Below, one piece after another: positions 1,728 to 27,747 of a stretch of DNA of 30,458 nt. Where the stretch lies: positions 1-30,458 of the forward strand of contig JAFXWI010000079.1 of the NCBI GenBank assembly GCA_017542915.1, read 5' to 3'. Numbering within the stretch: the stretch's first letter is position 1; the number at the start of each line of letters is the position of its first letter. The DNA comes from Paludibacteraceae bacterium (lineage in GTDB: Bacteria; Bacteroidota; Bacteroidia; Bacteroidales; Paludibacteraceae). Made by a program: the position numbers and the translations under genes. Below the pieces are notes generated by a model. That model did no database searches. It was not told the DNA's origin and was given only the letters and a program-made list of their open reading frames with translations.

Positions 1728-2660
1728 TCAGGAGAGATCGTAGCCGTAGTGCTTGAGGCGGTTGGTGTTGGAACGCCAATCCTTGTCCACTTTGACGAAG
1801 AGCTGGAGAAAGACCTGCTTTTGGAAGAAGTCCTCGATGTCCTTGCGTGCCTGCGAGCCGACGCGCTTGAGGGCAGAACCGGCTTTGCCGATGATGATGC
1901 CTTTCTGGGATTCTCGTTCGCAATATATCACTGCGTCAATGCGAATGAGTTTGTCCTCTTCCTTGAAGGATTCTACTTCGACTTCGACGGAGTACGGGAT
2001 CTCTTTGTCGTAGTTCTGGAGGATCTTCTCGCGGATGATCTCGTTGACAAAGAAGCGTGCGGGCTTGTCGGTCAGCTGGTCTTTCGGGAAGAAAGGAGGA
2101 CCGACAGGCAGTGCATCTTTGATAGCGTCAAAGAGCTGCGAAACGCCGAATTTCTCCTGTGCTGAGATAGGGAAGATGGTTGCTTCCGGAAGTTGGTTTT
2201 TCCAGAACTCAACTAATCGTTCGAGGGTTTCCTGTGTCGTGAGATCTATTTTATTTATAATAAGGAACACGCTCGAGCCTGCTGAAGACATCTTTTTTAC
2301 TTTCTCGATGAAGTCAGGATTGCGGTCGATGGTGTCTTGCGGCTCGGTGACATACAAGAGAACGTCCGCGTCCACAAGGGCTGAACGGGAGAACTCAAGC
2401 ATCTGACGCTGGAGTTGGTAGTTCGGCGAGAGGACACCCGGCGTATCGGAATAGACCATCTGGAAATCCTCGCCGTTGACGATACCCATGATACGATGGC
2501 GGGTGGTTTGCGCCTTCGATGTGATGATCGAAAGGCGTTCCCCCACCAAGGCGTTCATGAGGGTCGATTTGCCGACGTTGGGGTTACCAACAATGTTCAC
2601 AAACCCACTGCGATGGGTTTGTGAACATTGATTTGATATTTGAGAATTGAGATTTGACAT
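1728..2660 (-). CDS. era: GTPase Era, ribosome assembly factor
   Basis: Era is a GTPase that binds 16S rRNA near its 3' end during assembly of the 30S subunit. The 310-residue product has G1 GNPNVGKS (about residues 25-32), G3 DTPG (72-75) and G4 NKID (136-139). A C-terminal KH RNA-binding domain carries GIIIGKAG near residue 255. The conserved protein starts at about residue 17 (HRSGFVNIVGNPNVG). The 16 residues before it are unusual: they are encoded by period-7 repeats (2631-2665) and by the upstream arm of a perfect palindrome (2591-2630). The ATG at 2660 lies inside the repeat array, and no closer in-frame ATG or GTG was seen, so I keep it. The start is 12 bp after the M16 peptidase stop, so the two are probably co-transcribed. 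Confidence 0.97.
   Translation of the reverse strand: MSNLNSQISNQCSQTHRSGFVNIVGNPNVGKSTLMNALVGERLSIITSKAQTTRHRIMGIVNGEDFQMVYSDTPGVLSPNYQLQRQMLEFSRSALVDADVLLYVTEPQDTIDRNPDFIEKVKKMSSAGSSVFLIINKIDLTTQETLERLVEFWKNQLPEATIFPISAQEKFGVSQLFDAIKDALPVGPPFFPKDQLTDKPARFFVNEIIREKILQNYDKEIPYSVEVEVESFKEEDKLIRIDAVIYCERESQKGIIIGKAGSALKRVGSQARKDIEDFFQKQVFLQLFVKVDKDWRSNTNRLKHYGYDLS
2591..2630. repeat. Perfect 17-bp palindrome within era 5' coding region
   Basis: CAATGTTCACAAACCCA (2591-2607), a 6-base centre, and its exact reverse complement (2614-2630) form a strong hairpin. It falls at era codons 11 to 24. The downstream arm in the coding direction encodes the conserved GFVNIV segment. The upstream arm encodes non-conserved residues, which suggests it is an inverted copy of the conserved arm. 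Confidence 0.95.
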
Positions 2661-2665
2661 TTGTA
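2631..2665. repeat. Period-7 array at era start
   Basis: Five consecutive 7-bp units, ATTTGAT, ATTTGAG, AATTGAG, ATTTGAC and ATTTGTA, abut the era palindrome. The era start codon (2658-2660) and codons 2-10 lie inside. The unit ATTTGAC is the reverse complement of GTCAAAT, the repeated unit between ftsZ and the Wzz-like gene. Confidence 0.85.
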
Positions 2666-2672
2666 ATACTTT

Positions 2673-5603
2673 TTATTCTCCGAAGATCTTGTCTCCGCTC
2701 AACTTATTGACCTTACCGAACTTCGCTTTGAGGGCTTTTTGGTCGATGAGTTTGGGGTCGCCGATGACGAGGATCTTCACGGGTTTGCCTTGGATATGCT
2801 CTTCGTAGAAACGCTCGATGTCTTCGAATTTGAGTTTCTGGACTTGACGGATCTGAAGGGTAGCCGGGTCGATCTGATAGCCAAGTCTCATCCAATTGGT
2901 CATTACCTCGCTCTTGGAGCGGAAGGTGGGATGATTCGAGAGCATAGACTGACGCAAGATCGTACGGATGTTGCCAATGTTCTCCGGATTGCGCGGCATC
3001 GAATCGAGCAGCGAGCAGTACACATTGATAGCATCGTTGACCTTATCGGACTGCGTACCGACGTAGCCGAAGAAATAGGTGTTACGCTGCTGGATAGCCG
3101 GAGTACGGAACGCACCGACTGCGGTATAAGCCATCGAACGTTTCTCACGGATCTCATTCATGACAAGGCCGGAGAAGCCACCTCCGAAATACTCGTTAAA
3201 CGCCTCATACTGAACGGCTTCGTTGATGGAATAAGGCGTACCTTCGATGAGGAAGTATATCTTTGCCTGCTGCATATCGGGGTCCGAAAGGAAATAGAGC
3301 TCGGTCTTGTTGAACTTCGTACGCGGACGATCCACCGGCGAGGTGGTGGGGTTAGCAGGGTTCGAGACAGACATATGCTGATAGAGCGCCAACTTGACGG
3401 AGTCCGCAGGGAGCTGTCCGGCATAGTGGATCTCCAACTCGTAACCGAGGGCTTTCTTCCACTCCGCCTCCAAGTCTTCCTCTACGAGGATGATACCCAT
3501 AGCGGGGTCGAAGATGTTACGTTCGGGCACACGTTTGATGAAATGCGAGTTGTCGCCGTACATGACATACTCGAGCGCCGCAGCGGCACGCATGTCGGAG
3601 TTCTTACGCTCTATGTACCAACGGGAACTGAGTTCACGTCCAACGATGGCATTCAGTTTCTTATGTCCCTCAGAGGAGAACTCGGGGAAGTTCATATGGA
3701 GGTTAACGAGGGAGATGATCTCTTGGAGATGTGCCTCATCGCCTTCGATATAGACTACCACGTAGCTCGGCGTAGCGGAATAGGTACAAGTAGCACCGAG
3801 TTTCGCCAGTTTCTCACGGAACTCATTGACGGATGTACCTTTGGTACCCGGTGCACCTTTGATACCTGCCTCATTCATCATATTGACTGCAAAATCAAGC
3901 AGCGGCTTCTCGTACGTACCGATGCCGTATTTGAGTTTGAGGGTGAAGATATGGTTCTTGGGGTTCGGGGTGACATAGACGTACACGTTTTCCGCAAAAC
4001 GGTCCTGGTCGATGTCCTTGAGGTCCACGAACTTCGGCACGAGTTTGCCGGCAGGGATAGAGGAGAAGTTCTTGTAATACTCCGATTGTCCTTTACCGGG
4101 TTCGAGGGGTTTGATCTGCGGTTTGGCAAGTTTCTCTTTCTTGGGGTTTCCTTCGGTGATCTCGAAGGTTTTCTTAGGAGCAGAGAAATAGGTCTTAGCC
4201 ACAGCCAGCACTTCGGCTTTGGTTATTTTGGCTACTTCCTCTTTCTCAGCAAAGATTTTCTCCAGCGGCACTTGATAAGCGAAACTCTGGAGCAGCATCA
4301 TCGATTTGGTGTACTGGTACTCCATCGAACGGTCGTACTCCTGAAGGAGACTGCGGCGAACGGACTCGAAGAGCTCGTCCGAAACCTCACCATTGAGCAG
4401 TTTGTCCATGGCTTTCTTCACGGAGTTCTCGGTCTCTTTCATGGAGTTATACTCACGCGAAGAGGTGTTGAGGAACGGGATTGCCATGATCTGGATTCGT
4501 CCCATCTCACGTGCCGGACGGAGCGAAGCTTGAGCAGCGAGGAACTCGTTGTCGGACTGCAGTTCGTCCAAGAGACCGATACCCATATCGTTGGAGAGCA
4601 GTTCGCAAGCGATCTGAAGAGCCAGCTCGTCTTTGTCACCGGTCTTGACACCTTTGTATTCCTCGATGAGCATCGGGTAATAGCCCAGACGCGCTTTGAA
4701 ACGCTCGTCTTTGGCGAACTCGGTGTCCGTCCATGTGTTACGAGCAGGCAGCGGCTTGGACTCCATGGCACCGAAGATCTTCTCAATGAGCGGTTTCACC
4801 TCCTCGGAATGGAAGTTACCAACGAGGATAAGTGCCATATTATTAGGCACATACCACGTATTGAAGAACTCGATGAGTTGACGCATCTTGGGGTTCTTGA
4901 GGTCCTGCGGATAACCGATGATGTCCCGCTCGTACGGGGTACCTTTGCAAGCCTCAGCAGCAACGAACTTAGTCACATGCTGGCTGTTATCGTCGGAGTA
5001 CATGTTATACTCCTCGAAGACGTTCTCCAACTCGGCTTGGAACGAACGGAAGACCGGATTCGTCAGACGATCGGCATAGAGGGTAAGCCAACGCTCCATC
5101 TGGTAAGACGGGAAGCTGTTATGATAGAACGTGTAGTCATACGAGGTAGCGGCATTGAGTCCTTCGCCACCGATGGACTGAATCAGGTTCGAGAACTCAT
5201 CGGTCGCTCCATACTGAGCAGCGAGGATACTCTGTTCGTTGATTTTGAGCTGAATAGCATCGCGTTCCTTGGGGTCTTCCGTCATCGCGAGGGTGTCGTA
5301 GAGGGCGATGATATGCTCGTAATAGGGTTTCTCTTTCTCCCAATTGAGCGCGCCCATACGGTCGGTGCCTTTGAAGAGCATATGCTCCAGATAGTGAGCC
5401 AAACCGGTCGCTGTCTCGGGTTCGTCAATCGAACCGGCACGAGTGACGGTAGCTCCAAACACATCGGGCAGGTCTTGGTCTTCCCAGAGCATGACGGTGA
5501 GCCCGTTGTTCAAAGTGTACTGCTGCAAGCCTTCAGGCAGTTGTGCAGCCATCGTTGCGATGCCGCAGACAAGCAGCAAAACGCTAAAGAAAATCTTTTT
5601 CAT
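2673..5603 (-). CDS. M16 family zinc metallopeptidase (insulinase/pitrilysin-like)
   Basis: This is a 976-residue secreted peptidase. It starts at MKKIFFSVLLLVCGIATMAAQ, a typical signal peptide; the frame is open further upstream, but that part overlaps tdh. The inverted zinc motif HYLEH (H70, E73, H74) is followed about 80 residues later by the glutamate-rich segment ELENVFEEYNMY, which supplies the third ligand. The protein has two M16 halves, and only the first carries the zinc motif, as in two-domain M16 enzymes; the second half contains the substrate-contact region around GFSGLVMNEIREKRSMAY. It probably degrades peptides in the periplasm or outer envelope. The ATG is only 2 bases after the tdh stop (TAAATATG), so translation is probably coupled to tdh, although no functional link is evident. 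Confidence 0.93.
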   Translation of the reverse strand: MKKIFFSVLLLVCGIATMAAQLPEGLQQYTLNNGLTVMLWEDQDLPDVFGATVTRAGSIDEPETATGLAHYLEHMLFKGTDRMGALNWEKEKPYYEHIIALYDTLAMTEDPKERDAIQLKINEQSILAAQYGATDEFSNLIQSIGGEGLNAATSYDYTFYHNSFPSYQMERWLTLYADRLTNPVFRSFQAELENVFEEYNMYSDDNSQHVTKFVAAEACKGTPYERDIIGYPQDLKNPKMRQLIEFFNTWYVPNNMALILVGNFHSEEVKPLIEKIFGAMESKPLPARNTWTDTEFAKDERFKARLGYYPMLIEEYKGVKTGDKDELALQIACELLSNDMGIGLLDELQSDNEFLAAQASLRPAREMGRIQIMAIPFLNTSSREYNSMKETENSVKKAMDKLLNGEVSDELFESVRRSLLQEYDRSMEYQYTKSMMLLQSFAYQVPLEKIFAEKEEVAKITKAEVLAVAKTYFSAPKKTFEITEGNPKKEKLAKPQIKPLEPGKGQSEYYKNFSSIPAGKLVPKFVDLKDIDQDRFAENVYVYVTPNPKNHIFTLKLKYGIGTYEKPLLDFAVNMMNEAGIKGAPGTKGTSVNEFREKLAKLGATCTYSATPSYVVVYIEGDEAHLQEIISLVNLHMNFPEFSSEGHKKLNAIVGRELSSRWYIERKNSDMRAAAALEYVMYGDNSHFIKRVPERNIFDPAMGIILVEEDLEAEWKKALGYELEIHYAGQLPADSVKLALYQHMSVSNPANPTTSPVDRPRTKFNKTELYFLSDPDMQQAKIYFLIEGTPYSINEAVQYEAFNEYFGGGFSGLVMNEIREKRSMAYTAVGAFRTPAIQQRNTYFFGYVGTQSDKVNDAINVYCSLLDSMPRNPENIGNIRTILRQSMLSNHPTFRSKSEVMTNWMRLGYQIDPATLQIRQVQKLKFEDIERFYEEHIQGKPVKILVIGDPKLIDQKALKAKFGKVNKLSGDKIFGE

Positions 5604-5605
5604 AT

Positions 5606-6631
5606 TTACCATTCCAATAAAACTTTTCCACATTGTCCGCTGACCATGACATCGAATCCCTTCTGGAAATCTTTGAACTGGTAGCGGTGGGTGATCACCG
5701 GCGAGAGATCGAGTCCGCCAAGGAGCATCTGCTCCATCTGGTACCAAGTCTCCCACATACGACGTCCGGTGATTCCTTTGATGGTCAGAGCGTTGAAGAT
5801 GACATCCGACCAGTTGACCTTGGTCTCCGAGGGCAGGATACCGAGCTGCGCGATGTTCGCACCTTTGTACATATGCTCGATCATGTCGTTGAAGGCAGAG
5901 GGTGCGCCGGACATCTCCAGACCCACATCGAAACCACGGATACCGAGTTGGAACATCGCATCTTGGATCGTCTCACCTTTGGAGCCATCGACGGTAAGGG
6001 TAGCACCCATTTTCTTGGCTATTTCCAGACGGAGCGGATTGATGTCGGTAACAACGATGTTCTTCGCTCCGGCATAACGACAGATACCTGCCGCCATCGT
6101 GCCGATGAGTCCTGCTCCTGTGATGAGCACATCCTCACCCAGCAGCGGGAAAGCCAAAGCGGTGTGCGTAGCGTTGCCGAACGGATCCATGATAGCCGCG
6201 AAATCATCGGGAATACGCGGATGAACACGTACCACGTTCGATTCGGGAACAGAGACGAACTCTGCGAAACAGCCGTCTCGTCCCATGATACCGAGGGAGA
6301 TCGTGTTCTCGCATACATGCCCCATACCTCGGCGGCAGTTACGGCAGTGTCCGCACGTAATATGTCCTTCCGCCGTCACACGGTCGCCTATTTTGAAGTT
6401 GCGAACACCGGGACCGCAGTCCGCCACGATACCCACGAACTCATGTCCCATGGTGTAAGGCGGTTTGCAGTGTGATTGAGACCATGCGTCCCACTTATAC
6501 ATATGCAGATCCGTTCCGCAGATAGCGGCTTTGGTGACTTTGATCAGGACATCATTGACACCCATTTCCGGCATCGGTACATCTTCCATCCAGATTCCCG
6601 GTTCGGCGTATTTCTTAACTAAAGCTTTCAT
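5606..6631 (-). CDS. tdh: L-threonine 3-dehydrogenase
   Basis: This zinc- and NAD-dependent enzyme oxidises L-threonine to 2-amino-3-ketobutyrate. The 341-residue length is that of the E. coli enzyme. The catalytic zinc ligands are at the expected positions (C38 in ICGTDLHMYKW, H63 and E64 in MGHEF), and the structural zinc cysteines are C93, C96, C99 and C107. The nucleotide-binding loop is GAGLIGTMAAG. Its partner kbl lies immediately upstream on the same strand and uses the product. The two genes are separated by a CTAG array that includes the kbl stop. The assignment to Tdh rather than another medium-chain dehydrogenase rests on these residues and on the kbl neighbour. Confidence 0.96.
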   Translation of the reverse strand: MKALVKKYAEPGIWMEDVPMPEMGVNDVLIKVTKAAICGTDLHMYKWDAWSQSHCKPPYTMGHEFVGIVADCGPGVRNFKIGDRVTAEGHITCGHCRNCRRGMGHVCENTISLGIMGRDGCFAEFVSVPESNVVRVHPRIPDDFAAIMDPFGNATHTALAFPLLGEDVLITGAGLIGTMAAGICRYAGAKNIVVTDINPLRLEIAKKMGATLTVDGSKGETIQDAMFQLGIRGFDVGLEMSGAPSAFNDMIEHMYKGANIAQLGILPSETKVNWSDVIFNALTIKGITGRRMWETWYQMEQMLLGGLDLSPVITHRYQFKDFQKGFDVMVSGQCGKVLLEW

Positions 6632-6637
6632 TGTTTT

Positions 6638-6668
6638 CTAGTCTGTCTAGTCTATCTAGTCTATCTAG
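6638..6668. repeat. CTAG array, 9-bp period, between tdh and kbl
   Basis: CTAG starts at 6638, 6647, 6656 and 6665, exactly 9 bp apart, with units such as CTAGTCTAT. The kbl stop codon TAG is part of the last CTAG. The array fills almost the entire spacer before the tdh start at 6631. It has the same core and period as the array upstream of dnaK. Confidence 0.88.
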
Positions 6669-7855
6669 TGTAATACTGCTAACTCCTTGCCGATTTTGGT
6701 GAAGGCGGCAATACATTTATCTAATTGTTCGCGTGTGTGCGCAGCGGACACCTGTACGCGGATACGCGCCTGACCTTTCGGCACAACCGGATAATAGAAT
6801 CCGGTGACGTAGATGCCTTCTTTCTGGAGGGCAGCAGCGAAGTCCTGCGAGAGACGCGCATCGTAGAGCATGACTGCACAGATAGCCGACTGCGTCGGTT
6901 TGATATCGAAGCCTGCAGCACGCATTTTCTCCACGAAATACGCCGTGTTCTCATGCAGACGATCTTGCAGTTCGTTGGAACGCGTGAGGATCTCGAAGGT
7001 CTTGATACCCGCCGCAGCAATCATCGGAGGAATGGAGTTCGAGAAGAGATACGGACGACTGCGTTGACGCAGCAGGTCAATGATCTCTTTCTTACCTGTC
7101 GTGAAGCCGCCGACCGAACCGCCGAAAGCCTTACCAAGCGTGCCGGTGATGATCTCTATCTTACCGCGCATGTTATAGAGTTCGGTCACACCGTGTCCGG
7201 TCTTGCCGACAACTCCGGCGGAGTGCGACTCATCCACCATGACGAGGGCGTTGTATTTCTGTGCAAGCTCGTAGATCTTATCCAGCGGACAGACGTTACC
7301 GTCCATAGAGAAGACACCATCGGTAGCGATGATACGGAAGCGCTGTGCTTGCGCTTTCTTGAGCTGCTCCTCGAGATCCGCCATGTCACCGTTGGCATAA
7401 CGGTAACGCACCGCCTTGCAAAGACGCACACCATCGATGATAGACGCATGGTTGAGCGCATCAGAGATGATCGCATCCTCTTCCGTCAGCAGCGGTTCGA
7501 AAAGTCCTCCGTTCGCATCAAAACAAGCGGCATAAAGGATCGTGTCTTCCGTTCCGAAGAAATCGGAGATGACGCGTTCAAGTTCCTTGTGGGTGTCCTG
7601 CGTACCGCAGATAAAACGCACCGAAGCCATACCATAACCGCGCGCATCCATACGGGCTTTCGCTGCCTCAATAAGCTCTTTGTTATCAGCGAGTCCGAGG
7701 TAGTTGTTTGCGCAGAAGTTGATGACTTCTTGTCCGCCTTCTACAGCAATGCCGGAAGACTGCGGAGTAATGATCACGCGCTCGTTCTTATAAAGTCCTG
7801 CTTCGCGAATCTCATTCAGCGTTTTTTGCAGGTGTTGTTGAAAATCTTGATACAT
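6665..7855 (-). CDS. kbl: Glycine C-acetyltransferase (2-amino-3-ketobutyrate CoA ligase)
   Basis: This PLP enzyme of the alpha-oxoamine synthase family cleaves 2-amino-3-ketobutyrate with CoA to glycine and acetyl-CoA. The product is 396 residues, close to the family standard of about 398. The PLP lysine is K242 in GTLGKAFGGSVGG, and the cofactor pocket includes MVDESHSAG with its conserved aspartate and histidine. With tdh downstream it forms the threonine-degradation pair. The upstream spacer to gdhA holds an 8-bp tandem array. The pair may be co-transcribed with gdhA, since no terminator or clear promoter lies between them. That would place threonine breakdown and ammonium assimilation on one transcript; this is inference. 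Confidence 0.96.
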   Translation of the reverse strand: MYQDFQQHLQKTLNEIREAGLYKNERVIITPQSSGIAVEGGQEVINFCANNYLGLADNKELIEAAKARMDARGYGMASVRFICGTQDTHKELERVISDFFGTEDTILYAACFDANGGLFEPLLTEEDAIISDALNHASIIDGVRLCKAVRYRYANGDMADLEEQLKKAQAQRFRIIATDGVFSMDGNVCPLDKIYELAQKYNALVMVDESHSAGVVGKTGHGVTELYNMRGKIEIITGTLGKAFGGSVGGFTTGKKEIIDLLRQRSRPYLFSNSIPPMIAAAGIKTFEILTRSNELQDRLHENTAYFVEKMRAAGFDIKPTQSAICAVMLYDARLSQDFAAALQKEGIYVTGFYYPVVPKGQARIRVQVSAAHTREQLDKCIAAFTKIGKELAVLH

Positions 7856-7863: not shown

Positions 7864-7895
7864 CGTAATGACGTAATCACGTAATGACGTAATCA
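7864..7895. repeat. 8-bp tandem array between kbl and gdhA
   Basis: Four perfect-period units alternate: CGTAATGA, CGTAATCA, CGTAATGA, CGTAATCA. The array lies between the kbl start (7855) and the gdhA stop (7907). The function is unknown. Confidence 0.9.
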
Positions 7896-7906
7896 CGAAG
7901 TTTTTT

Positions 7907-9283: not shown

Positions 9284-9303
9284 TTTATTAGAGTTCTAAT
9301 AAA
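9284..9303. promoter_or_regulatory. 20-bp palindrome at gdhA transcription start
   Basis: TTTATTAGA (9284-9292), two central bases, and TCTAATAAA (9295-9303) form a perfect inverted repeat. It begins about 8 bp downstream of the -7 box and so covers roughly the first 20 transcribed bases. That is a typical position for an operator, or it could act as a leader hairpin. The regulator is unknown. Confidence 0.6.
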
Positions 9304-9311
9304 TTCGGGTA

Positions 9312-9343
9312 CAAAGTTACTGCTTTTTTTTCAAATATGCAAA
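9312..9343 (-). promoter_or_regulatory. Promoter of gdhA (Bacteroidales type)
   Basis: On the minus strand TTTG (9343-9340), 20 bases and TAACTTTG (9319-9312) match the Bacteroides -33/-7 consensus. The -33 region reads TTTGCATATTTGAAA, a degenerate form of the palindrome found at the murC, lepA and kinase promoters. Confidence 0.8.
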
Positions 9344-9368
9344 TATTTTTGCAATAATTTTTCGAAAA

Positions 9369-11906
9369 TCACTTTCCTGCAGACACTCCCTCACCTCCGC
9401 CAAGACGCGAAGACTCGTCAAGCTCGCCCACACGGCGGTGTTTATGTTGCTGCTGACGACCGAACAGCCATGTGATCGAAAACATGACGCGTTGCTGACG
9501 AACGGTCTGTTGATACCAACTCGTGTAACCGGGTTGCTGACCCATATCGGTAGTCGTGAAACGCATCGAACGCGCCAGATCTTGAACATTGAGGTTGAAA
9601 ATAAGTCCCTTTTTCATGTACATCTTACGGATACCAAAGGACAGATAATACGTACTCTCCTGCCGCTCATAACCGGTTGTCATCGGCGAAGACCAGTTGC
9701 CGTCAAAGGTAACGGTCCACTCTTTGGGCAAGTAAGCCGAGAGCGTGCCGCCTATATAACCGTAGTGATTGCCGAGTTCGTAAACCGGCTTACCGTCCGG
9801 CCTCTTTTCGTATGATTTATTGAGGAAATGATACCAGCCTGCATTGATGGTTAGCGCTAACCAAGCACCGGACAATTTACGATTTGGACATTTACCATTT
9901 ACCATTTGGCTTTCATCGCATTTCTCGTATTTGGGCACTATAGGCAACTCGGTCAGAGAGATGTTTCCGCCGTGCGTAGTACAAGTACCGAAATTAACCC
10001 AACGCATTCTGCCTGTTCCGTCGGCAAGTATATCCGTCTTGCGGTTGAACATATTCTGCGTGTGTGCAAAATTGAAAGTCAGATTGAGGTATTGCGTCCA
10101 ACTGAAATGCAGCTCCACATCGTTGTTAAACTCCGGCGAGAGATCCGTGTTGCCCTCCTGATAACTATACGCATCCACATAGGTCCGGAAAGGATTCAGC
10201 ATCCAGTAATTCGGTCGTTTGATGCGCCTTGTGTACGATGCAGACACAGCTATCGGTTGCTGCCACTTACCCAGCGGTTTGGAGGTATAACCGACATAGA
10301 CCGTGGGGAACGGATCAAAATACGACTTGTTCGTGATCGAGTCCGCCGATGTCCAGTTGCCGTGCGAGAACGTGTACTCTCCGCGCAGACCGAGTTTGAC
10401 CGACCAGTGTTCGCCAAACTGCTTGCCGACGGAGATATAAGCCGCAGCCACATGCTCTTGGTAACGGAAATCCGAAACGGCTTGCGGACTGAGAACACCA
10501 TTGACCGTGGAGTCCGTCGTCATATGGTTATCGGTCGAAGAAAGGGCATATTTGACACCCGTCTCGATCATGCCGGTTTGCCAGAACTTGGTCTGAAAAT
10601 CCAACTTCGCCGAGTATATTTGCGCCGTCTGACGAGAACGCAGATCCAAGTCCAACGAACGAATGACAAAATCGGATTTCTGTATGTTCTTCGCGCAGGA
10701 CGAATAGCGGTTATAATCCACATTGACTGTCAGTTCCCTCTCCAACGCCTCATTAAACGTGTGCGTGAAGTTGAGGTTCGCCGTGTGTTGCGGAGCCTGC
10801 GTCGAAGTGTTCGTGGAGGTACGACTGAACGTCGTGTCCGAACCTATAACGGTATAACCGATGTTACGATCATCGATGATGTCTTGCTTGATTCGCATAT
10901 ACGGGACTTGCAGAATGAAACCGAACGTATTGGCAGAATCAATATACCAGTCGTTGCCCAATTTCATCATATAGTACTGAAACTCAATATCATAGCCCGA
11001 ATACGAATAGTTCTCCATTGCCTTGGCTCCACCGATAGCAGGGGATGTGCGGCGAGTCTCAAAATCCGCATCATTCTGCGCAAAGACCTGCGTCAGTTGA
11101 CCGAAAGTATAGGTCTTCTCGCCCCGATAATTGAGGTTGAGCGAGAACATATCGTTGTTCAACCATCGTTTGACATCGCCGAAATACATGCCGCCATAAC
11201 CGGCAGAAAGCATTCCGTTCAGACCTTTCATCATATTCTTTTTGGTCTTGATATTGATGATGCCGCCTTGACCCGAAGCATCGTATTTGGCAGAAGGATT
11301 AGAGATGATCTCAATCTTCTCGATCGTATTACCGTCCGTTCCGTCAAGCATCGCTTTGAGTTGTTGTCCGCTCAGGTACGAGGGCTTACCGTCTATCCAG
11401 ATCTCCACACCTTTACCGTTTACGGTAATATTACCATCTTTGTCGATCCGCACACCCGGCGAACGACGGAGAATATCGTTTCCGTTGGAGCCTGCCGAAA
11501 GCGGCGAAGCAGAGACGTTCACCACCAACTTGTCCATCTGTCGTTCAATAAGCGGTTTCTTGGCTTTCACCTCTACTTCTGCAAGACGTTCGGTCTCTTC
11601 GCGCAGCACAAAATCCGGTCCGCCAAAAACGGTCTGATAGCCGACATAGGAGGCTTGAATAAGGAACCTCTCCCCGCCCCTCCCCACAAGGGAGGGAGAT
11701 TCTATGCTGTATCTGCCTTGCTCATCGGTAATATCGCCGGTAAGGAGAACGGAATCTTTGTCAAGAACAGAGATCGTGACATACGGCATCGGATGACCAT
11801 TGACATCCTTGACAGAACCTTTGATGGTCTCTGCATAGCAGTTTGCTGAAAGGGCAAAAACCAATAACAGCCACAGCCCTGATTTGATAACATTTTTGAT
11901 ATTCAT
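9369..11906 (-). CDS. TonB-dependent outer-membrane receptor-like protein (OMP_b-brl_3 type)
   Basis: This is an 845-residue outer-membrane protein. The ATG at 11906 is chosen over an upstream one because a promoter -7 box (11932-11939) lies in between and a signal peptide starts here (MNIKNVIKSGLWLLLVFALS...CYAE). An N-terminal carboxypeptidase-regulatory domain (TIKGSVKDVNGHPMPYVTISVLD) comes first. Then follow a plug domain (LRRSPGVRIDKDGNITVNG, then IEIISNPSAKYDASGQGGI) and a long beta-barrel rich in aromatic residues. It has no SusD partner, so the substrate is unknown. Two segments look inserted: residues near 70 (PSLVGRGGERF), encoded by a GC-rich hairpin, and a barrel segment (around MVNGKCPNRKL) encoded by a period-7 array. 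It lies downstream of an AraC regulator, which may control it. Confidence 0.93.
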   Translation of the reverse strand: MNIKNVIKSGLWLLLVFALSANCYAETIKGSVKDVNGHPMPYVTISVLDKDSVLLTGDITDEQGRYSIESPSLVGRGGERFLIQASYVGYQTVFGGPDFVLREETERLAEVEVKAKKPLIERQMDKLVVNVSASPLSAGSNGNDILRRSPGVRIDKDGNITVNGKGVEIWIDGKPSYLSGQQLKAMLDGTDGNTIEKIEIISNPSAKYDASGQGGIINIKTKKNMMKGLNGMLSAGYGGMYFGDVKRWLNNDMFSLNLNYRGEKTYTFGQLTQVFAQNDADFETRRTSPAIGGAKAMENYSYSGYDIEFQYYMMKLGNDWYIDSANTFGFILQVPYMRIKQDIIDDRNIGYTVIGSDTTFSRTSTNTSTQAPQHTANLNFTHTFNEALERELTVNVDYNRYSSCAKNIQKSDFVIRSLDLDLRSRQTAQIYSAKLDFQTKFWQTGMIETGVKYALSSTDNHMTTDSTVNGVLSPQAVSDFRYQEHVAAAYISVGKQFGEHWSVKLGLRGEYTFSHGNWTSADSITNKSYFDPFPTVYVGYTSKPLGKWQQPIAVSASYTRRIKRPNYWMLNPFRTYVDAYSYQEGNTDLSPEFNNDVELHFSWTQYLNLTFNFAHTQNMFNRKTDILADGTGRMRWVNFGTCTTHGGNISLTELPIVPKYEKCDESQMVNGKCPNRKLSGAWLALTINAGWYHFLNKSYEKRPDGKPVYELGNHYGYIGGTLSAYLPKEWTVTFDGNWSSPMTTGYERQESTYYLSFGIRKMYMKKGLIFNLNVQDLARSMRFTTTDMGQQPGYTSWYQQTVRQQRVMFSITWLFGRQQQHKHRRVGELDESSRLGGGEGVSAGK
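9875..9910. repeat. Period-7 array inside receptor gene
   Basis: The units are ATTTACG, ATTTGGAC (8 bp), ATTTACC, ATTTACC and ATTTGGC. They lie in the barrel-coding region and are translated as part of QMVNGKCPNRKL. The unit resembles those at the lepA-nhaD and ftsA-ftsZ junctions. Confidence 0.75.
11678..11696. repeat. GC-rich hairpin inside receptor gene
   Basis: CCCTCCC (11678-11684), the loop CACAA and GGGAGGG (11690-11696) form a perfect stem inside coding sequence near residue 70. It lies within the segment that appears extra relative to typical carboxypeptidase-regulatory domains. Confidence 0.75.
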
Positions 11907-14878: not shown

Positions 14879-14910
14879 CATCCGCCTCACTTTTTTAATA
14901 AAAAACCACA

Positions 14911-14976: not shown

Positions 14977-15169
14977 TCACTCGGAGCCTGCACAAGCTTT
15001 GGTACATACTTTCACGATCCAAACACGATATCGCGCCAAATGATACCCCAAACATTCCCAAAGGATACCCCAAGGATACAAGCCGTTTTTTGTTAAAAAT
15101 ACGCTTTATACTATATATACTACGTATATATACTTTTTGATGCCTTTTCCCCCTTTCTAAGCTCTATAC
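14977..15169. other. Gene-free stretch between kinase and lepA promoters
   Basis: No convincing coding sequence was seen. The stretch holds two near-copies of GGATACCCCAA (about 15040-15080) and an AT-rich palindromic patch (TATATAC around 15110-15131). With the flanking repeats it makes up most of a roughly 500-bp intergenic region between divergent transcripts. Confidence 0.6.
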
Positions 15170-15251
15170 GAGATATTCATTATTAATTATTAATTTTTAA
15201 TTGAATTATTGAGATATTCATTATTAATTTTTAATTTTTAATTAAATTATT
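15170..15251. repeat. 41-bp tandem duplication upstream of lepA, built of period-7 units
   Basis: Copies at 15170-15210 and 15211-15251 are identical at 39 of 41 positions by direct reading. Each contains heptamers of the form ATTATTA and ATTTTTA. The second copy ends on the first bases of the palindrome at the lepA -33 element. Confidence 0.9.
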
Positions 15252-15281
15252 TGCATATATGCAAAATTTTTTGTACCTTTG
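15250..15281 (+). promoter_or_regulatory. Promoter of lepA with 16-bp palindrome
   Basis: TTTG (15250-15253), 20 bases and TACCTTTG (15274-15281) form a consensus promoter. The palindrome TTTGCATATATGCAAA occupies 15250-15265. Predicted transcription starts near 15288, giving a leader of about 25 bases before the ATG at 15313. Confidence 0.87.
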
Positions 15282-15312
15282 CAGCCGATTTAATTTGGAT
15301 AAATAGGACTCA

Positions 15313-17088: not shown

Positions 17089-17098
17089 TGAAAAAATA

Positions 17099-17133
17099 AT
17101 TTTTAATTTATAATTTTTAATTTCAAATCACAT
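17099..17133. repeat. Period-7 array between lepA and the antiporter
   Basis: Units ATTTTTA, ATTTATA, ATTTTTA, ATTTCAA and ATCACAT run contiguously and stop one base before the antiporter ATG (17135). They occupy most of the 46-bp spacer. Confidence 0.8.
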
Positions 17134-20087: not shown

Positions 20088-20099
20088 ATAATCTTAAAT

Positions 20100-20162
20100 A
20101 TCAAATTTCCAATATCCAATATCCAATGTCAAATATCCAATGTCAAATGTCCAATGTCAAAT
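20100..20162. repeat. Nine-unit period-7 array between ftsZ and the Wzz-like gene
   Basis: Nine contiguous heptamers run 20100-20162. The units are ATCAAAT, TTCCAAT, ATCCAAT (three copies), GTCAAAT (three copies) and GTCCAAT, in mixed order. The consensus is RTCMAAT. It is the longest array of this family in the window and fills the spacer after the ftsZ stop. Confidence 0.92.
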
Positions 20163-20167
20163 GATCA

Positions 20168-21412
20168 TTAGTTCCTCCTAATCCATCCGAACGCTCTGCG
20201 GACAGGTTTCTCGGGCTCTTCCTGTTTGGGTTCATCCTCTACGGTAATCACCACCTCTTCTGCCGAAGTGGAAGCAGCACGTTCACGCGGTTCTTGCGGT
20301 ACTTCGATTCCCTCCTCACGCAAGGTGTCACTCAGATCGATGAGCGTTGTTTTCTCATCTTCCATCGGTTTGGGTTGCTGAGTCGGATAGTTAGCCTCTA
20401 TCGCTTCGGAGATGGATTTCTTTCCTTCCTCTTCTTCCTCAGAAGGCAGTCCGTCCACCTTATAGCCGGTAGCGATGACCGTTACGCGAACCTCTTCTCC
20501 GAGCGTCTCATCAATAGAAGCACCCCATTGCACCTCGATGTTATCGCCCACTTCTTGTACGAAATCGTTGATCTGATCAATCTCTTCCATAACGATGGCG
20601 TGCTCGGTGGAGCAGTAGAACTGAAGGAGAATACGCTCTGCACCGTGAACGTCGTTGGTATTGACCAGCGGAGAGTTCAGTGCATCGTTGATGGCGTTGG
20701 TAATACGTTTCTCACCGGAAGCGCGACCGATATTCATGATCGCTACACCACCCTTACGCAGCGTATTACGCACGTCCGCAAAGTCGGTGTTGATATATCC
20801 CGGAACAGTGATGATCTCTGCTATAGCTCGCGCCGCGTTCGCTACTACGTCATCCGATTTGGAGAACGCATTGAGGAGGTTGAGTTCCGGATAGATCTGT
20901 TTGAGTTTCTCATTATTGATGATCAGCAGCGCATCTACATGCTTTGCCAAACGAGCCACACCGGTCATCGCTTTCTCGATCTTCTTCTTGCCCTCGAAAG
21001 CAAAAGGAATCGTCACGATACCCACAGTGAGGATACCCATTTCTTGTGCCACTTCGGCTACTACGGACGAAGCGCCCGTTCCGGTTCCACCGCCCATACC
21101 GGCAGCAAGGAACAACATCTGCGTGCCATCATTGAGCGCCTCACGGATATGATCACGGCTCTCCTCGGCATACTGACGCGCGGTTTCTGGATCACCACCG
21201 GCACCTAAACCCGGTCCTAACTGCAGTTTGCTCGGAACGGAGCTTTTGATAAGCACCTGACGATCCGTGTTGCACACGAGGAAAGAGACGTCCTTCAATC
21301 CCTGACGATGCATATAATTGACTGCATTGCAACCACCACCGCCAACTCCGATGACCTTGATAATACTATCTTCTGTCAGTCCCTCAAGGGGTAATGTAAT
21401 AAGATCTTCCAT
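20168..21412 (-). CDS. ftsZ: Cell division protein FtsZ
   Basis: FtsZ is the tubulin-like GTPase that forms the division ring. The nucleotide-binding glycine-rich start is IIKVIGVGGGGCNAVNYM, and the tubulin signature is FLAAGMGGGTGTGASSV. I take the ATG at 21412 (MEDLITLPLEG), giving 414 residues. The frame is open to a TTG at 21436 that overlaps the ftsA stop, but the eight extra residues come from a period-7 array and are not typical. The acidic linker (about 310-400) ends in the basic tail PVRRAFGWIRRN, where the partner-binding C-terminal peptide would be. It lies in the order murC-ftsQ-ftsA-ftsZ. Confidence 0.97.
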   Translation of the reverse strand: MEDLITLPLEGLTEDSIIKVIGVGGGGCNAVNYMHRQGLKDVSFLVCNTDRQVLIKSSVPSKLQLGPGLGAGGDPETARQYAEESRDHIREALNDGTQMLFLAAGMGGGTGTGASSVVAEVAQEMGILTVGIVTIPFAFEGKKKIEKAMTGVARLAKHVDALLIINNEKLKQIYPELNLLNAFSKSDDVVANAARAIAEIITVPGYINTDFADVRNTLRKGGVAIMNIGRASGEKRITNAINDALNSPLVNTNDVHGAERILLQFYCSTEHAIVMEEIDQINDFVQEVGDNIEVQWGASIDETLGEEVRVTVIATGYKVDGLPSEEEEEGKKSISEAIEANYPTQQPKPMEDEKTTLIDLSDTLREEGIEVPQEPRERAASTSAEEVVITVEDEPKQEEPEKPVRRAFGWIRRN

Positions 21413-21414
21413 AT

Positions 21415-21442
21415 TCTTGTAATTTACGATTTTCAATTTTGA
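21415..21442. repeat. Period-7 array at ftsA-ftsZ junction
   Basis: Units TCTTGTA, ATTTACG, ATTTTCA and ATTTTGA run contiguously. The ftsA stop codon (21433-21435) and the last ftsA codons lie inside, and the array ends 3 bp before the preferred ftsZ ATG. Confidence 0.7.
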
Positions 21443-22743: not shown

Positions 22744-23496
22744 TTAATATCGACCTATTACTTGTCCTTTAAAACGGAGATCGAATTCTCTGTAGTTCTT
22801 GCCTTCTATAGCTTCTCCGGCATTCTCCATGAACGTCCGCATTTTCTTCAACTTACGCTCATAACCGTTCATAGCGCCAAGCACTAAACGCTCGTTCTGC
22901 ATCTTACCATTCGCATCCTTCAGATAGAGATAGAGCATAAACGGTGATTGTACGTACAGATGATGCACACGAGCGTTCCAATACTTATTCTCTTGAAGCC
23001 ACTCCGCAAAATCCGCCAACTGCGTCACCGCCATCTGCGTGCCCACATTGCCGCTCACGATCAGAACGGTATCTTTGACAGCCGCCCTCGCTTGCATCAC
23101 ACGCCGGTCGGTATCCACAAGCCATGTGTCCGTATTCGTCTGCACACGTAACATCGGCACCCTCTGGGTGATCTGTACATGCACCTCATTGCGCGGCGTG
23201 AGGTAACACTCTGCCGTACGAACCATCGGATGTGCTTTGATAGCACGCTCTATACGATGCAGCGAGACCAAGTTCAATTTACGCCCCAAAGGATACACAT
23301 CCTCCGCATAAAGGAGCATATTCAACTCCGCCTCCGTGAGGTACATCCGCTCCGATTTATCCTCTATCAGATAGCGCATAGAGACGCAAGGCGCGTCAGT
23401 TGGCGTCATCCGAAAACCACTGATCACAGCCCCCACCAGAAGCAGCGCTGTCACGCACACTCCGATGCTTTTCCATATGATTTGTGCTTTGGACAA
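22744..23496 (-). CDS. ftsQ: Cell division protein FtsQ
   Basis: FtsQ is a bitopic divisome protein linking cytoplasmic and periplasmic division proteins. The 250-residue product has one N-terminal helix (about 8-30). A POTRA-like region follows, containing LNLVSLHRIERAIKAHPMVRTAECYL and VHVQITQRVPMLRVQ, then a domain ending ...EFDLRFKGQVIGRY. Identification rests on this layout and on the position between murC and ftsA. No ATG is available near the expected start; a TTG at 23496 is the best candidate and lies inside a period-7 array, 8 bases after the murC stop. Confidence 0.92.
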   Translation of the reverse strand: MSKAQIIWKSIGVCVTALLLVGAVISGFRMTPTDAPCVSMRYLIEDKSERMYLTEAELNMLLYAEDVYPLGRKLNLVSLHRIERAIKAHPMVRTAECYLTPRNEVHVQITQRVPMLRVQTNTDTWLVDTDRRVMQARAAVKDTVLIVSGNVGTQMAVTQLADFAEWLQENKYWNARVHHLYVQSPFMLYLYLKDANGKMQNERLVLGAMNGYERKLKKMRTFMENAGEAIEGKNYREFDLRFKGQVIGRY

Positions 23497-23520
23497 ATTA
23501 CAAATTATAAATTACAAATT
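23493..23520. repeat. Period-7 array spanning murC stop and ftsQ start
   Basis: Four contiguous units ACAAATT, ACAAATT, ATAAATT and ACAAATT. The murC stop codon (23505-23507) and the presumed ftsQ TTG start (23494-23496) both lie inside. The last murC residues (ICNL) are repeat-encoded. Confidence 0.88.
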
Positions 23521-24932
23521 GCTTTCGTTATTTCCGGCACAAGACGATCGATGTCTCCTGCTCCGATGGTAAGTACTACTACCGGTTCTTTGGACTCCTC
23601 CACACGACGGCGAAGATAATCCACCAGATCCGCTTTCTGTACTATCCGTTTGTCGGTATTGGTCATTTTGGCCAAGAGCATCTCGCTGTTCACACCTTCT
23701 ATCGGCAGCTCACGCGCCGGATAGATAGGCAGCAACACCGCCTCGTCCAGCGTACTGAGCACGCGTGCAAACTCATCTGCAAAATCGCGTGTACGGGTAT
23801 AGAGATGCGGTTGGAATACACCGATGAAACGGCGTTCGGGGTACAACTTACGGATCGAATCAAAAGCAGTAGCAATCTCGGCGGGATGATGCGCGTAGTC
23901 ATCGACATAAGCTACTTTCTCCGTATTCACATGGATATTGAACCGGCGGCTCACTCCTCTAAAGGAGGCAATGCCGTTTCTCAATTCGTTCTCCGACAAT
24001 CCGTTCAGCCACGCTACCGACATAGCCGCTACCGCATTCTCAATATTGACATATACCGGCACGCCTAACTTCACGTCCAATATCGTAGTCGTGGTGTTAG
24101 CAGGGATGTCTATATGGAAATCGAAGTATATCTGCCCTTTCTCCACACGAATATGATCCGCATAGAAATTCAAGTCCTGCGGCTTCGGCTCATTGCTCAA
24201 GACTCCATATGTATAGCATTTCACGCCCTTCTGCAACTTCGGCTCCAGAGCGATGCCGTGCTTCATAACCAAAGCGCCGGTAATCAAAGCCGTGTAGTCC
24301 GCGAACGCTTCACGATAGGCTTCCGGTGTACCGTATATATCCAAATGGTCGGCATCTACTGCCGTCACCACCGACATATACGGCCTCAACTGATGGAAAG
24401 AACGGTCGTACTCGTCCGCCTCTACCACCACATAATTGCTGTCTTTCTGAAGCAGGATATTCGTGCCGTAGTTCATGCTAATACCGCCCAAGAAAGCGTT
24501 CGTGCCTATTTCCGACTGATAGAGAAGGTGAGCCAACATCGTGCTGGTAGTTGTCTTTCCGTGCGTACCTGCCACACAGAGTGCTTTCAGACCATATGTC
24601 ACCAGCCCCAATACCTCTGCCCTCTTGCGGATAGAATAACCCTGTTCGCGCAGATAGGTATAGATAGCACAATCCTCGGGAACTGCAGGCGTGCGCACAA
24701 CCATCGTGTGCTTCTGATTGAAGGAGATAGACGAGTTCTCCAAGAATGAAGGGTCGTCCTCATACGTAATGGAGATCCCTTCACTCTCCAGTTCTTTCGT
24801 CAATCCCGAAGGCGTACGGTCGTAACCCGACACCGTATATCCGCGATGATGAAAATAACGCGCTAAGGCGCTGATACCGATTCCTCCGATACCTAAAAAA
24901 AAGAAATTCTGTATATCCGCTTGACTGATCAT
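23505..24932 (-). CDS. murC: UDP-N-acetylmuramate--L-alanine ligase
   Basis: MurC adds L-alanine to UDP-MurNAc, using ATP, in the first step of building the peptidoglycan stem peptide. The product is 475 residues. The UDP-binding Rossmann segment is FLGIGGIGISALARYFHHRGY, the ATP P-loop is CVAGTHGKTTTSTMLAHLL, and VVEADEYDRSF carries catalytic acidic residues. FRGVSRRFN and DDYAHHPAEI are the usual Mur ligase motifs of the central and C-terminal domains. It has its own promoter immediately after the terminator of the next gene, so here the murC-ftsQ-ftsA-ftsZ block forms a separate unit rather than the end of a long mra/mur operon. Confidence 0.97.
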   Translation of the reverse strand: MISQADIQNFFFLGIGGIGISALARYFHHRGYTVSGYDRTPSGLTKELESEGISITYEDDPSFLENSSISFNQKHTMVVRTPAVPEDCAIYTYLREQGYSIRKRAEVLGLVTYGLKALCVAGTHGKTTTSTMLAHLLYQSEIGTNAFLGGISMNYGTNILLQKDSNYVVVEADEYDRSFHQLRPYMSVVTAVDADHLDIYGTPEAYREAFADYTALITGALVMKHGIALEPKLQKGVKCYTYGVLSNEPKPQDLNFYADHIRVEKGQIYFDFHIDIPANTTTTILDVKLGVPVYVNIENAVAAMSVAWLNGLSENELRNGIASFRGVSRRFNIHVNTEKVAYVDDYAHHPAEIATAFDSIRKLYPERRFIGVFQPHLYTRTRDFADEFARVLSTLDEAVLLPIYPARELPIEGVNSEMLLAKMTNTDKRIVQKADLVDYLRRRVEESKEPVVVLTIGAGDIDRLVPEITKAICNL

Positions 24933-26590: not shown

Positions 26591-26670
26591 TAAAAAAATA
26601 ATTAAAATCACACCATATTTACTAAAAAAAGCATAAAATGACCCCATATTTGCATTTTTTTTCAAAAATA

Positions 26671-26702
26671 TTTGGTCATGTCAAAAAAAAGCAGTACCTT
26701 TG
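26671..26702 (+). promoter_or_regulatory. Promoter of tRNA-Lys
   Basis: TTTG (26671-26674), 20 bases and TACCTTTG (26695-26702) form a consensus promoter. The next gene downstream is the tRNA at 26845, so the predicted transcript has a leader of about 135 bases. Confidence 0.8.
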
Positions 26703-26708
26703 CACCCG

Positions 26709-26844
26709 CTTTTGAGTTAAACGCACGTTTTACCCTCCCTCTCGGGATGTAAACAGCGAAGCGTTTCAGCCCGAAAAGCGTAGCACAACACGTAGCACTT
26801 TACAAGCGCAGAGCGCGCAGTCGTGCGAGTGTTAGTGCAAGCAA
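26709..26844 (+). ncRNA. Long leader upstream of tRNA-Lys, possible small RNA
   Basis: This stretch of about 135 bases lies between the predicted transcription start and the mature tRNA. It has no convincing reading frame and no second tRNA cloverleaf that I can fold by eye. It is more GC-rich than the AT-rich promoter region before it and contains two copies of CGTAGCAC (26779-26786 and 26791-26798). It may be a removed 5' leader or a small RNA co-transcribed with the tRNA. Confidence 0.35.
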
Positions 26845-26917
26845 GTCTCCCTAGCTCAGTTGGTAGAGCAACTGACTCTTAATCAGTGGGTCGAGGGTTC
26901 GAGTCCCTCGGGGGACA
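26845..26917 (+). tRNA. tRNA-Lys (anticodon CUU)
   Basis: The cloverleaf is complete. The acceptor GTCTCCC pairs with GGGGGAC with one G-U pair. The D arm is GCTC...GAGC, and the anticodon arm is ACTGA-CTCTTAA-TCAGT with anticodon CTT, decoding AAG. The T arm is GAGGG-TTCGAGT-CCCTC, and the discriminator is A at 26917. CCA is not encoded, as is common in Bacteroidetes. Confidence 0.97.
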
Positions 26918-26955
26918 CAGAAAAAGGACACTGGATGGTGTCCTTTTTCTGTGTC
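26914..26955. terminator. Bidirectional terminator overlapping tRNA-Lys 3' end
   Basis: The 18 bases at 26914-26931 are perfectly complementary to 26938-26955, with a 6-base loop. In both directions the core GGACAC stem is followed by five T residues, so it can terminate the tRNA on the plus strand and the operon ending at 26986 on the minus strand. The outer arm includes the last four bases of the tRNA gene. Confidence 0.85.
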
Positions 26956-26985
26956 TCTTGAGAGGCGAGAAGAGCCCATTATCGC

Positions 26986-27747
26986 TTACAGACTCTCGGC
27001 AAAAATCTCTGCCTCTTCTATCTGATCTATCTTACCGACATCCATCATCCGGTAGTCGTTCGGCACAAACGCTTTCAGTTCCGCTTTCCCACAAATAGAC
27101 AAATAGAAATCAATGAGGGAGAATTTATCCTCTTTCATGGCGTCCAACATCGCCAACACATCGGGACTGAGGATCTGCATTCCGCTAAATGCCAATAACT
27201 GCGTATTCTCCTTTGTCCATATGCCATTATTCGGTCTCACCTCACCCGTCTTGATATTCGTCCATCCGCAAAGCCTATCTTTCTCATCGAAACAGAGGTA
27301 GCGTTGCGTCTCCCGCTTGGAAACCACCAATTGGCTGACACCTGTACACTCATAAGCGCTTATCAATGCGCGCAAATCGATATTCGACAAGATATCCACA
27401 TTGCACGCGAGAATCGGTCCATTGTCCATTGTCCATTGTCCATTGTCCATTAAAAGCCGAAAGGCTTTTTTGAGTCCCCCACCGGTATCGAGCAACATCT
27501 CCCGTTCATCGGAAACTGCGATATTACAGTTCCACCCTTGGTTTGCACGGATGGTATCAATAATCATATCGGGGAAATGATGCACGTTCACGATGATGTC
27601 GGTGATCCCGGCGTCACGCAGTTTCTCTACCTGCCACTGGAGCAGCGGTTTACCTGCCAACGGCACAAGTGCCTTGGGCATCCTATCGGTGAGCGGTTTA
27701 AGGCGCGTGCCCAAACCGGCAGCAAAAATCATCGCTTTCATTCTCAT
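26986..27747 (-). CDS. Sugar-phosphate nucleotidyltransferase, MurU-like
   Basis: The protein has 253 residues of the NTP-transferase fold. The signature MIFAAGLGTRLKPLTDRMPKAL (about 6-27) binds nucleotide; LDTGGGLKKA and NVD (about 116-118) match the sugar-1-phosphate and metal-binding sites. The short length and the AmgK-like kinase in the same operon suggest N-acetylmuramate-1-phosphate uridylyltransferase (MurU), which makes UDP-MurNAc from salvaged sugar; a mannose- or glucose-1-phosphate transferase is possible. The start is the ATG at 27747, overlapping the upstream stop as ATGA. Residues about 99-110 (MDNGQWTMDNGP) are encoded by a five-unit 7-bp tandem array and look like an insertion in a surface loop. 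Confidence 0.85.
   Translation of the reverse strand: MRMKAMIFAAGLGTRLKPLTDRMPKALVPLAGKPLLQWQVEKLRDAGITDIIVNVHHFPDMIIDTIRANQGWNCNIAVSDEREMLLDTGGGLKKAFRLLMDNGQWTMDNGPILACNVDILSNIDLRALISAYECTGVSQLVVSKRETQRYLCFDEKDRLCGWTNIKTGEVRPNNGIWTKENTQLLAFSGMQILSPDVLAMLDAMKEDKFSLIDFYLSICGKAELKAFVPNDYRMMDVGKIDQIEEAEIFAESL
27417..27451. repeat. Five perfect 7-bp units inside MurU-like gene
   Basis: GTCCATT is repeated five times without mismatch. It is translated in the minus direction; because 7 is not a multiple of 3, all three frames are used in turn, giving MDNGQWTMDNG. The unit differs by one base from GTCCAAT in the ftsZ-downstream array. Confidence 0.97.

Follow-up and report, generated by a model that had tools for sequence, protein, structure and literature searches.

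Introduction

In many genomes, long simple sequence repeats (LSSRs) are preferentially built from units of seven nucleotides (PMC4679880 and PMC4692102, citing Mrazek 2007), and an idea based on polymerase slippage or polymerase contact has been offered for this length (PMC4692102, PMC4679880). Described heptamer repeats include TAACTGA direct repeats in Beggiatoaceae, cyanobacteria, and five Bacteroidetes (PMC4679880), GGGAATC in Xanthomonas (PMC4692102), and the Calothrix STRR and Nostoc GGGGAYT repeats. Short-tandem-repeat density is high in Bacteroidota (PMC12699852). Here, we analyze the 7-nt tandem arrays in a 30,458-nt stretch of DNA from a Paludibacteraceae bacterium (GenBank assembly GCA_017542915.1, contig JAFXWI010000079.1, positions 1 to 30,458; referred to as the window). 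In this lineage, the arrays are specific to period 7 and, secondarily, period 8, occupy both spacers and in-frame sites within genes, change in length, and are in part replaced as blocks by unrelated units.

We compared these arrays with the described systems using 439 arrays from seven sample sets. Tandem 7-nt units that exceed chance and are commoner than other lengths are shared with heptanucleotide LSSRs; the sections of PMC4679880 and PMC4692102 consulted do not describe block replacement of units or in-frame sites in core enzymes. The TAACTGA repeats likewise form arrays at gene junctions, with 7-nt indels between close strains, and are a published Bacteroidetes parallel (PMC4679880), where a sequence-only reading of the window had known of no named equivalent. 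However, most Beggiatoaceae TAACTGA repeats precede start codons in one orientation (PMC4679880), whereas the present arrays often start at stop codons and are found within genes as well, and TAACTGA was the unit of 0 of the 439 arrays. The Xanthomonas GGGAATC repeats also occupy, for the most part, corresponding intergenic positions in two relatives and vary greatly in length and sequence, but they constitute one G-rich, quadruplex-forming family in both relatives (PMC4692102), whereas the present units are A/T rich (mean unit G+C content of 26 to 27% in the three relatives G001, G444, and G066) and can be swapped for unrelated ones. Neither GGGAATC nor GGGGAYT was found among the 439 arrays. 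The Calothrix STRR (compared by form alone) and Nostoc GGGGAYT repeats are also dispersed heptamer arrays between genes, whereas the present unit stock is large and changes between sister species. Rickettsia palindromic elements (RPEs) likewise place short repeated DNA in frame in unrelated genes and encode a conserved peptide, but they are palindromes of ~150 bp (PMC10969869), whereas the present arrays consist of direct tandem units and span a few tens of nucleotides, and a 7-nt unit, being of odd length, cannot be self-complementary. The resemblance in form to published bacterial heptamer repeats is thus supported: the element is a heptamer repeat by form, belongs by its units to neither the TAACTGA nor the G-rich family, and is in part like palindromic elements in its in-frame location. 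We found no report of unit replacement at a fixed period or of heptamer arrays in core-gene loops in the literature searched, which lay mostly outside subscription papers.

Results

Heptamer arrays in the window

The nearest relative compared, G001, matches most of the window at 92 to 95% identity, and a second relative, G444, is ~96% identical to G001. In one of the genome comparisons that covered G444, 39 of 178 genomes gave no score. The nearest lepA relatives in named genomes are from uncultured Bacteroidales and Paludibacteraceae metagenome-assembled genomes, many of them rumen derived. Arrays were detected with Tandem Repeats Finder and a lag scan of our own, a lag score of at least 12 being required for a call. 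Genes of the window and of the G001 kin were called with a simple caller of our own, which leaves start codons uncertain.

The sequence-only reading had listed eight period-7 arrays and placed them at gene boundaries. Seven of these stretches scored at least 12, the exception being 21415-21442 (score 6). With the 15179-15240 stretch counted as two arrays because of a 41-bp duplication, the window contained 8 lag-7 arrays versus 0.02 expected from 100 block-wise Markov shuffles. The other lags yielded two arrays (lag 9), one array (lags 6, 8, and 11), or none (lags 5, 10, 12, and 13). The placement at boundaries held for part of the arrays; those at 9875-9910 and 27417-27451 lie in coding genes, and that at 15179-15240 lies in a divergent spacer. 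The arrays and the genes concerned are listed below, with the strand where one was assigned.

1728 to 2600, minus strand: era GTPase gene, with no array in the window or G001
2631 to 2665: ATTTGAN-like heptamer array in a spacer bounded by era and the stop of a peptidase M16 gene (2673 to 5633, minus strand)
9369 to 11906, minus strand: OMP_b-brl_3/TonB-plug protein gene, host of the 9875 array
9875 to 9910: heptamer array, CATTTAC/ATTTGG, within the outer-membrane beta-barrel gene
15174 to 15243: two AT-rich heptamer arrays, ATTATTA/ATTTTTA, in the 41-bp duplication; the divergent spacer that holds them lies upstream of lepA
17097 to 17123: ATTTTTA array in the spacer that follows lepA (stop codon at 17088)
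20096 to 20163: [AGT]TC[AC]AAT array that occupies the whole spacer beyond the stop of the gene at 20168 to 21436 (minus strand)
21415 to 21442: weak heptad-like stretch in the overlap of two genes (score 6, below threshold)
23493 to 23520: ACAAATT array, covering the 3' end of the gene at 23505 to 24932 (minus strand)
26986 to 27741, minus strand: MurU-like nucleotidyltransferase gene, host of the 27417 array in a helix-to-strand loop
27417 to 27451, minus strand: array of five perfect GTCCATT units; the loop it encodes is MDNGQWTMDNG

The same sites were often different in relatives. In G001, the 2631 spacer carries a different heptad-like sequence (56 nt), and the 9875 array, which is the same in G444, corresponds to nonarray sequence of equal anchor-to-anchor length (73 nt). 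The spacer after lepA has ACAAATT-like units in locus L026 versus ATTTTTA in the window. Array length also differs at single sites, with 63 nt in the window versus 35 nt in G001 at 20096-20163 and 28 versus 35 nt at 23493.

Period 7 across the genome and the clade

Genome-wide tests were run on G001 and its kin. The G001 sample comprised 749,863 bases in 40 stretches (~30% of the genome). In this sample, period 7 dominates, followed by period 8. The numbers of arrays in intergenic regions plus open reading frames (ORFs) were 84 + 50 at lag 7, 38 + 8 at lag 8, 13 + 7 at lag 9, and 16 + 2 at lag 11, while the remaining lags were rare (lag 10, 4 + 0; lag 12, 1 + 5; lag 6, 0 + 4; lag 5, 0 + 1; lag 13, 0 + 0). 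Exact lag-7 runs of at least 11 in the first 375 kb numbered 27 in spacers, compared with 0.4 in Markov-shuffled spacers, and 24 in ORFs. A genome-wide excess of lag-7 periodicity with differing units is therefore supported in this relative. The 78.6 kb of spacer sequence held 84 lag-7 arrays and the 671 kb of ORFs held 50, a ~14-fold higher density per base in spacers.

The density of lag-7 arrays per 100 kb was 18 to 26 in G001, G444, and G066, 11 in G003, and 3.5 in four sparse genomes pooled. Five TGA trinucleotides at a spacing of 7 had at least one match in 111 of the 121 genus genomes and 172 of the 294 order genomes examined. The reversed control (AGT-N4) was as common as TGA-N4 in many genomes, and these counts accordingly show breadth, not a stop function. 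The units formed a restricted vocabulary (43 classes for the 134 G001 arrays versus 116 classes for random spacer heptamers) that differed between genomes, the cosine similarity of the G001 stock being 0.75 with G444 and 0.20 with both G066 and G003. A trinucleotide-core scan for degenerate arrays detected no single preferred core.

Beside these arrays, CTAG is present in several period-9 units of G001, and the spacers of some sparse genomes are dominated by periods 11 and 22. In 21 kb of locus L073, from the uncultured Prevotellaceae genome RUG216, there are six heptamer arrays, including one of ~200 nt (CTCATCA), indicating that the trait is not confined to Paludibacteraceae.

Turnover in orthologous spacers

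The 477 spacers tried yielded 288 orthologous pairs, mainly between G001 and G444, with a few partners from the window. An array was present in both members of 36 pairs, in G001 only in 18, in the partner only in 19, and in neither in 215. Unit distance in the 36 shared-array spacers was 0 or 1 in 27 and 2 to 4 letters in 9, and the distances in these 9 were like those of random unit pairs. When a unit was lost, the partner had another heptamer array in 24 of 50 cases, compared with 53 of 467 for spacers without a strong array (Fisher P = 3e-9, which is too small because every spacer is counted in both directions). Other lags in the same 50 partners were less frequent (lag 8, 9 cases; lag 11, 4; lags 10 and 13, 1 each; lags 5, 6, 9, and 12, zero). 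The excess was also found for spacers of 60 to 200 nt (10/16 versus 15/108; P = 7e-5).

In one spacer, for example, the units are TTCGTAA in G001 and TTGTCCA in G444, with 98% identity between the anchors in the two flanking genes. The flanks of many spacers remain ~92 to 98% identical up to the start and stop codons. Arrays of 7-mers were also exchanged for arrays of 8-mers, and the reverse, between relatives. Among pairs with the same unit, only 6 of the 20 nonzero differences in spacer length were multiples of 7.

The MurU-like loop

The loop MDNGQWTMDNG lies between LLDTGGGLKK and PILACNVDILSN. An alignment with the solved MurU-type chain 4y7t places it in a short segment that, in the MurU fold, joins a conserved helix to a strand. 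Among the best 120 homologues of the matches listed, the loop is variable and the rest of the enzyme is conserved, with loop peptides such as VRGERLKVKGE, MKNEKLKIINE, VTGYGLQVTGE, and LTPYTLHRTP. A structure predicted from a 31-row alignment was uninformative (mean predicted local distance difference test score, 48.5).

All 111 genus genomes matched in the MurU-like search, and the best 30 loci were taken; the loop set (n = 30) consists of 29 of these plus the window, L261 not being parseable. The loop DNA had a lag-7 score of at least 7 in 21 of 30 loci and no such score at any other lag from 5 to 13, while shuffled loops gave 0.05 to 0.3 per lag. Across the 30 loci, there were 11 to 12 different heptamer units. 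In a tree built without the loop, G001, which has TGAAAGG-like units at the window's loop codons, was split from the window and G444 (AATGGAC) with supports of 100/100 and 97/84, and G104 (CCTTACA) was split from G465 (CTAATCC) with a support of 95/95; many deeper forks were unresolved. These supported splits between loci with different units indicate changes of unit at one site.

A small hairpin-like stretch (AAAGCCGAAAGGCTTT; 27452-27470) follows the GTCCATT array, and homologues at a greater distance contain hairpin and array in combination as KKAFRLLMDNGQ.

Arrays inside genes

Called ORFs contained 49 to 50 of the 134 lag-7 arrays of G001, again qualifying the placement at gene boundaries. 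In a 467-kb alignment of G001 and G444, 69 of 180 indels of at least 12 nt were inside genes, and 58 of these 69 kept the frame, compared with 42 of 111 elsewhere. Variable segments of at least 18 nt had at least three further copies in the genome in 31 of 58 cases in G444 and 17 of 52 in G001, compared with 5 of 180 random coding controls. Twenty genes were scanned. The matches included MurU-like, Dus, EPSP synthase, MiaB-like, RNB + S1 exoribonuclease, DXS, DapB, Mur ligase, topoisomerase III, signal peptidase I, and type IX secretion system plug proteins, while some of the 20 had a weak match or none.

Within ORFs, 36 of 53 G001 arrays and 44 of 58 G444 arrays were mapped to the relative, leaving out 17 and 14, respectively. 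Many of the mapped arrays were unchanged, and others were altered in length or swapped for another array or module.

Not every variable in-gene segment consists of heptamers. Other small repeat modules swap at similar places in genes and spacers of G001 and G444 (e.g., L018:16929, L017:15273, L153:4646, and L162:4136), including CCCTCCC...GGGAGGG palindromes, GTCTTACAGCGAAGCGGTC, GGAGTTAATCGCGCCCTTGCGGCAGAG, and CGGCGAAGCAGATCGTTCGACCGG. In addition, a called G001 gene (L018:16501-17703) matches both PcrB and a cytidine-deaminase-like domain and is either a fusion or a gene-call artifact.

Other features of the window

Further tandem repeats are at 14797-14839, 14907-14977, 6637-6669, and 7864-7897 (periods 21, 11/22, 9, and 8). 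The window has one detected tRNA, a tRNA-Lys (CTT) at 26845-26918. An AT-rich element of ~65 nt lies dispersed at 15221-15291 (plus strand), 9301-9371 (minus), and 26650-26716 (plus), has many matching places in G001, and ends in TTTG...TAMCTTTG; we take it to resemble a long Bacteroidota promoter (-33/-7 motif).

Discussion

Proposed growth by slippage and replacement by copying

We give a probability of about 0.5 to the reading that these are hypervariable heptamer (and octamer) arrays that grow by slippage, are repeatedly replaced by nonallelic copying, and are kept where frame and fold tolerate them. Polymerase slippage, favoring ~7 nt, would grow the arrays. An array site might then stall and slip and so be repeatedly refilled by nonallelic copying (template switching or ectopic conversion), the source being the current array stock of the genome. 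Selection would purge copies that break frame or fold, leaving arrays in spacers, gene ends, and tolerant loops, and no sequence-specific function would be required.

Three observations were counted for copying, namely, the small number of unit classes, the differing stocks of the genomes, and the sharing of 3-unit runs. Shared runs of at least three mixed units between loci exceeded shuffled order in G444 (P = 0.005), G001 (P = 0.025), and G066 (P = 0.015). The sequence-only reading had set recent copying of one element aside because units differ between arrays; the limited vocabulary makes copying between loci possible after all. Local slippage, which it had also proposed, is retained here as a probable growth step, but slippage alone does not easily account for unrelated units replacing one another at one spot.

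Several results weigh against slippage combined with copying. The copying step is deduced from such patterns, not directly seen. Shared runs of at least four units exceeded chance in G066 only (P = 0.04; 0.16 in G001 and 0.08 in G444), and no excess was found for runs of at least five units. Three-quarters of the shared arrays (27/36) keep their unit within one mismatch, and the preference of swapped units for their own genome is weak (exact matches, 31 versus 16, P = 0.04; up to one mismatch, 31 versus 24, not significant). Equal period-7 units were not clustered within 10 kb (P = 0.40 in G001 and 0.16 in G444); for period 8 in G444, 4 of 25 equal-unit pairs were within 10 kb (P = 0.03). In spacers of 15 to 60 nt, the replacement excess was not significant (2/7 versus 17/110). 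Outside the MurU locus, G110 has no exact match to its MurU unit CGGGTTA, and exact CYTACAC arrays at other loci numbered three in G105, one in G104, and zero in G111. Finally, some replaced segments (e.g., in Era and Dus) differ beyond the array, possibly through recombination with a divergent allele.

The GACTAAC family and possible insertion by a mobile system

The G444 sample contained 24 GACTAAC-family arrays, of which 16 were mapped to G001 or the window and 8 had no mapped orthologue. The partner of the 16 was an array of the same family in 3 cases (one of them a misgrouped AACTACT array), another heptamer array in 5, an octamer array in 2, and no array in 6 (two of these rows being one locus). 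A peptide of this family, GLTT[NK]D[QH]R[PL]TT, recurs in one frame in Dus, Era, a Pyr_redox_2 protein, and an M49/DPP III-like peptidase of G444, four proteins unrelated to one another; none of the 580 genes called in the G001 sample encodes it. In Era of G444, it corresponds to a 45-nt in-frame array, which Era of the window, Era of G001, and the solved Era 9jkp lack. A few codons flanking the Era array also differ, indicating a local exchange larger than a bare insertion.

A tentative extension of the copying reading is that a genome-wide, lineage-specific heptamer stock acts as a peptide-inserting system. Its arrays would be copied in trans to gene junctions and, in frame, to loops of core enzymes such as Era, Dus, the MurU-like enzyme, and the DPP III-like peptidase, and one unit family could replace others at many loci within ~4% divergence. 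The same data could instead reflect a dedicated mobile system, comparable to RPEs, by which preformed heptamer arrays enter spacers and, in frame, genes. The recurrence of one peptide in one frame, its absence from the G001 genes, the insertion in Era, and the G that precedes many GACTAAC arrays (which thus begin GGACTA) are what such a system might produce. We nevertheless regard it as unlikely, since odd-length units cannot be palindromic, different units reuse the same sites, and the common frame may follow from the avoidance of stop codons. A RAYT transposase as the driver was rejected: RAYT/Y1_Tnp was detected in 2 of 12 genomes, with one match each, and its presence was not correlated with array density.

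Possible exchange between divergent alleles

Arrays might also diverge slowly within lineages and then be exchanged between lineages by homologous recombination. Several in-gene events do sit in segments more divergent than the 96% background, and the window-like MurU loop recurs in homologues of ~75 to 81% identity, while the G001 protein, at ~90%, has another loop. Such exchange seems rather improbable, given that many spacers retain flanks of high identity up to the start and stop codons, and it would leave unexplained how the donor lineage gained the other unit.

Position relative to stop codons

A role in RNA processing or at translation starts had been raised as one possibility for the arrays. 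Units of G001 arrays in codirectional spacers contained a sense stop codon in 52 of 69 cases and an antisense stop codon in 31 of 69 (control spacers, 38% and 34%); for period-8 units, these numbers were 28 and 17 of 30. Long gaps (at least 100 nt) contained 26 heptamer arrays, 12 of which began no more than 17 nt from the upstream stop codon (5.5 expected; P = 0.0024) and 5 of which lay at the start codon; 6 of 17 period-8 arrays began near the stop codon (P = 0.04). The 10 period-9 and 9 period-11 arrays showed neither a stop-codon bias in their units nor starts near stop codons. Mapping against start and stop codons thus revealed a stop-side bias in long gaps, but many arrays are inside genes.

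These biases are what would be expected if stop-bearing heptamers had been selected to stop all three frames after genes or to act as a translation or RNA signal. We consider this very unlikely because unit variants do not preserve the stops: period-7 variants kept them no more than by chance (27 of 39 versus 27.2 expected), and period-8 variants did so in only slight excess (21 of 25 versus 18.4). The stop columns of period-8 units vary less (6.0% versus 10.3%), but so do the antisense stop columns (5.5% versus 9.9%). About one quarter of heptamer units lack any stop codon, the orientation is reversed in ORFs (25 antisense-only versus 12 sense-only units), and the AGT-N4 control is often as common. 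The sense-stop bias arises largely because the arrays include or abut the gene's own stop. We therefore rejected a stop-codon barrier based on sense orientation and a unit length of 1 modulo 3, and for the RNA-processing or translation role there is evidence of position but not of preserved stops.

Ordinary minisatellite drift, i.e., local slippage with point mutation and homogenization, fits the 27 shared arrays with a nearly constant unit and the clear length changes at single sites but is scarcely credible for the other 9 of 36, which differ by 2 to 4 of 7 letters as random pairs do, for the exchanges between periods 7 and 8, or for arrays in genes whose orthologues show none.

Implications

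The preference of bacterial repeats for seven bases has so far been explained only by a polymerase-contact conjecture. This clade presents one spot across many relatives at which the period is fixed and the sequence is exchanged, even in core enzymes, and the process that writes the units becomes directly testable by strain sequencing. The arrays also provide a route from repeat DNA to short peptides in core proteins, which in the sources used is described chiefly for RPEs. Gene callers, alignments, and typing schemes can mistake such loops and spacers for ordinary divergence.

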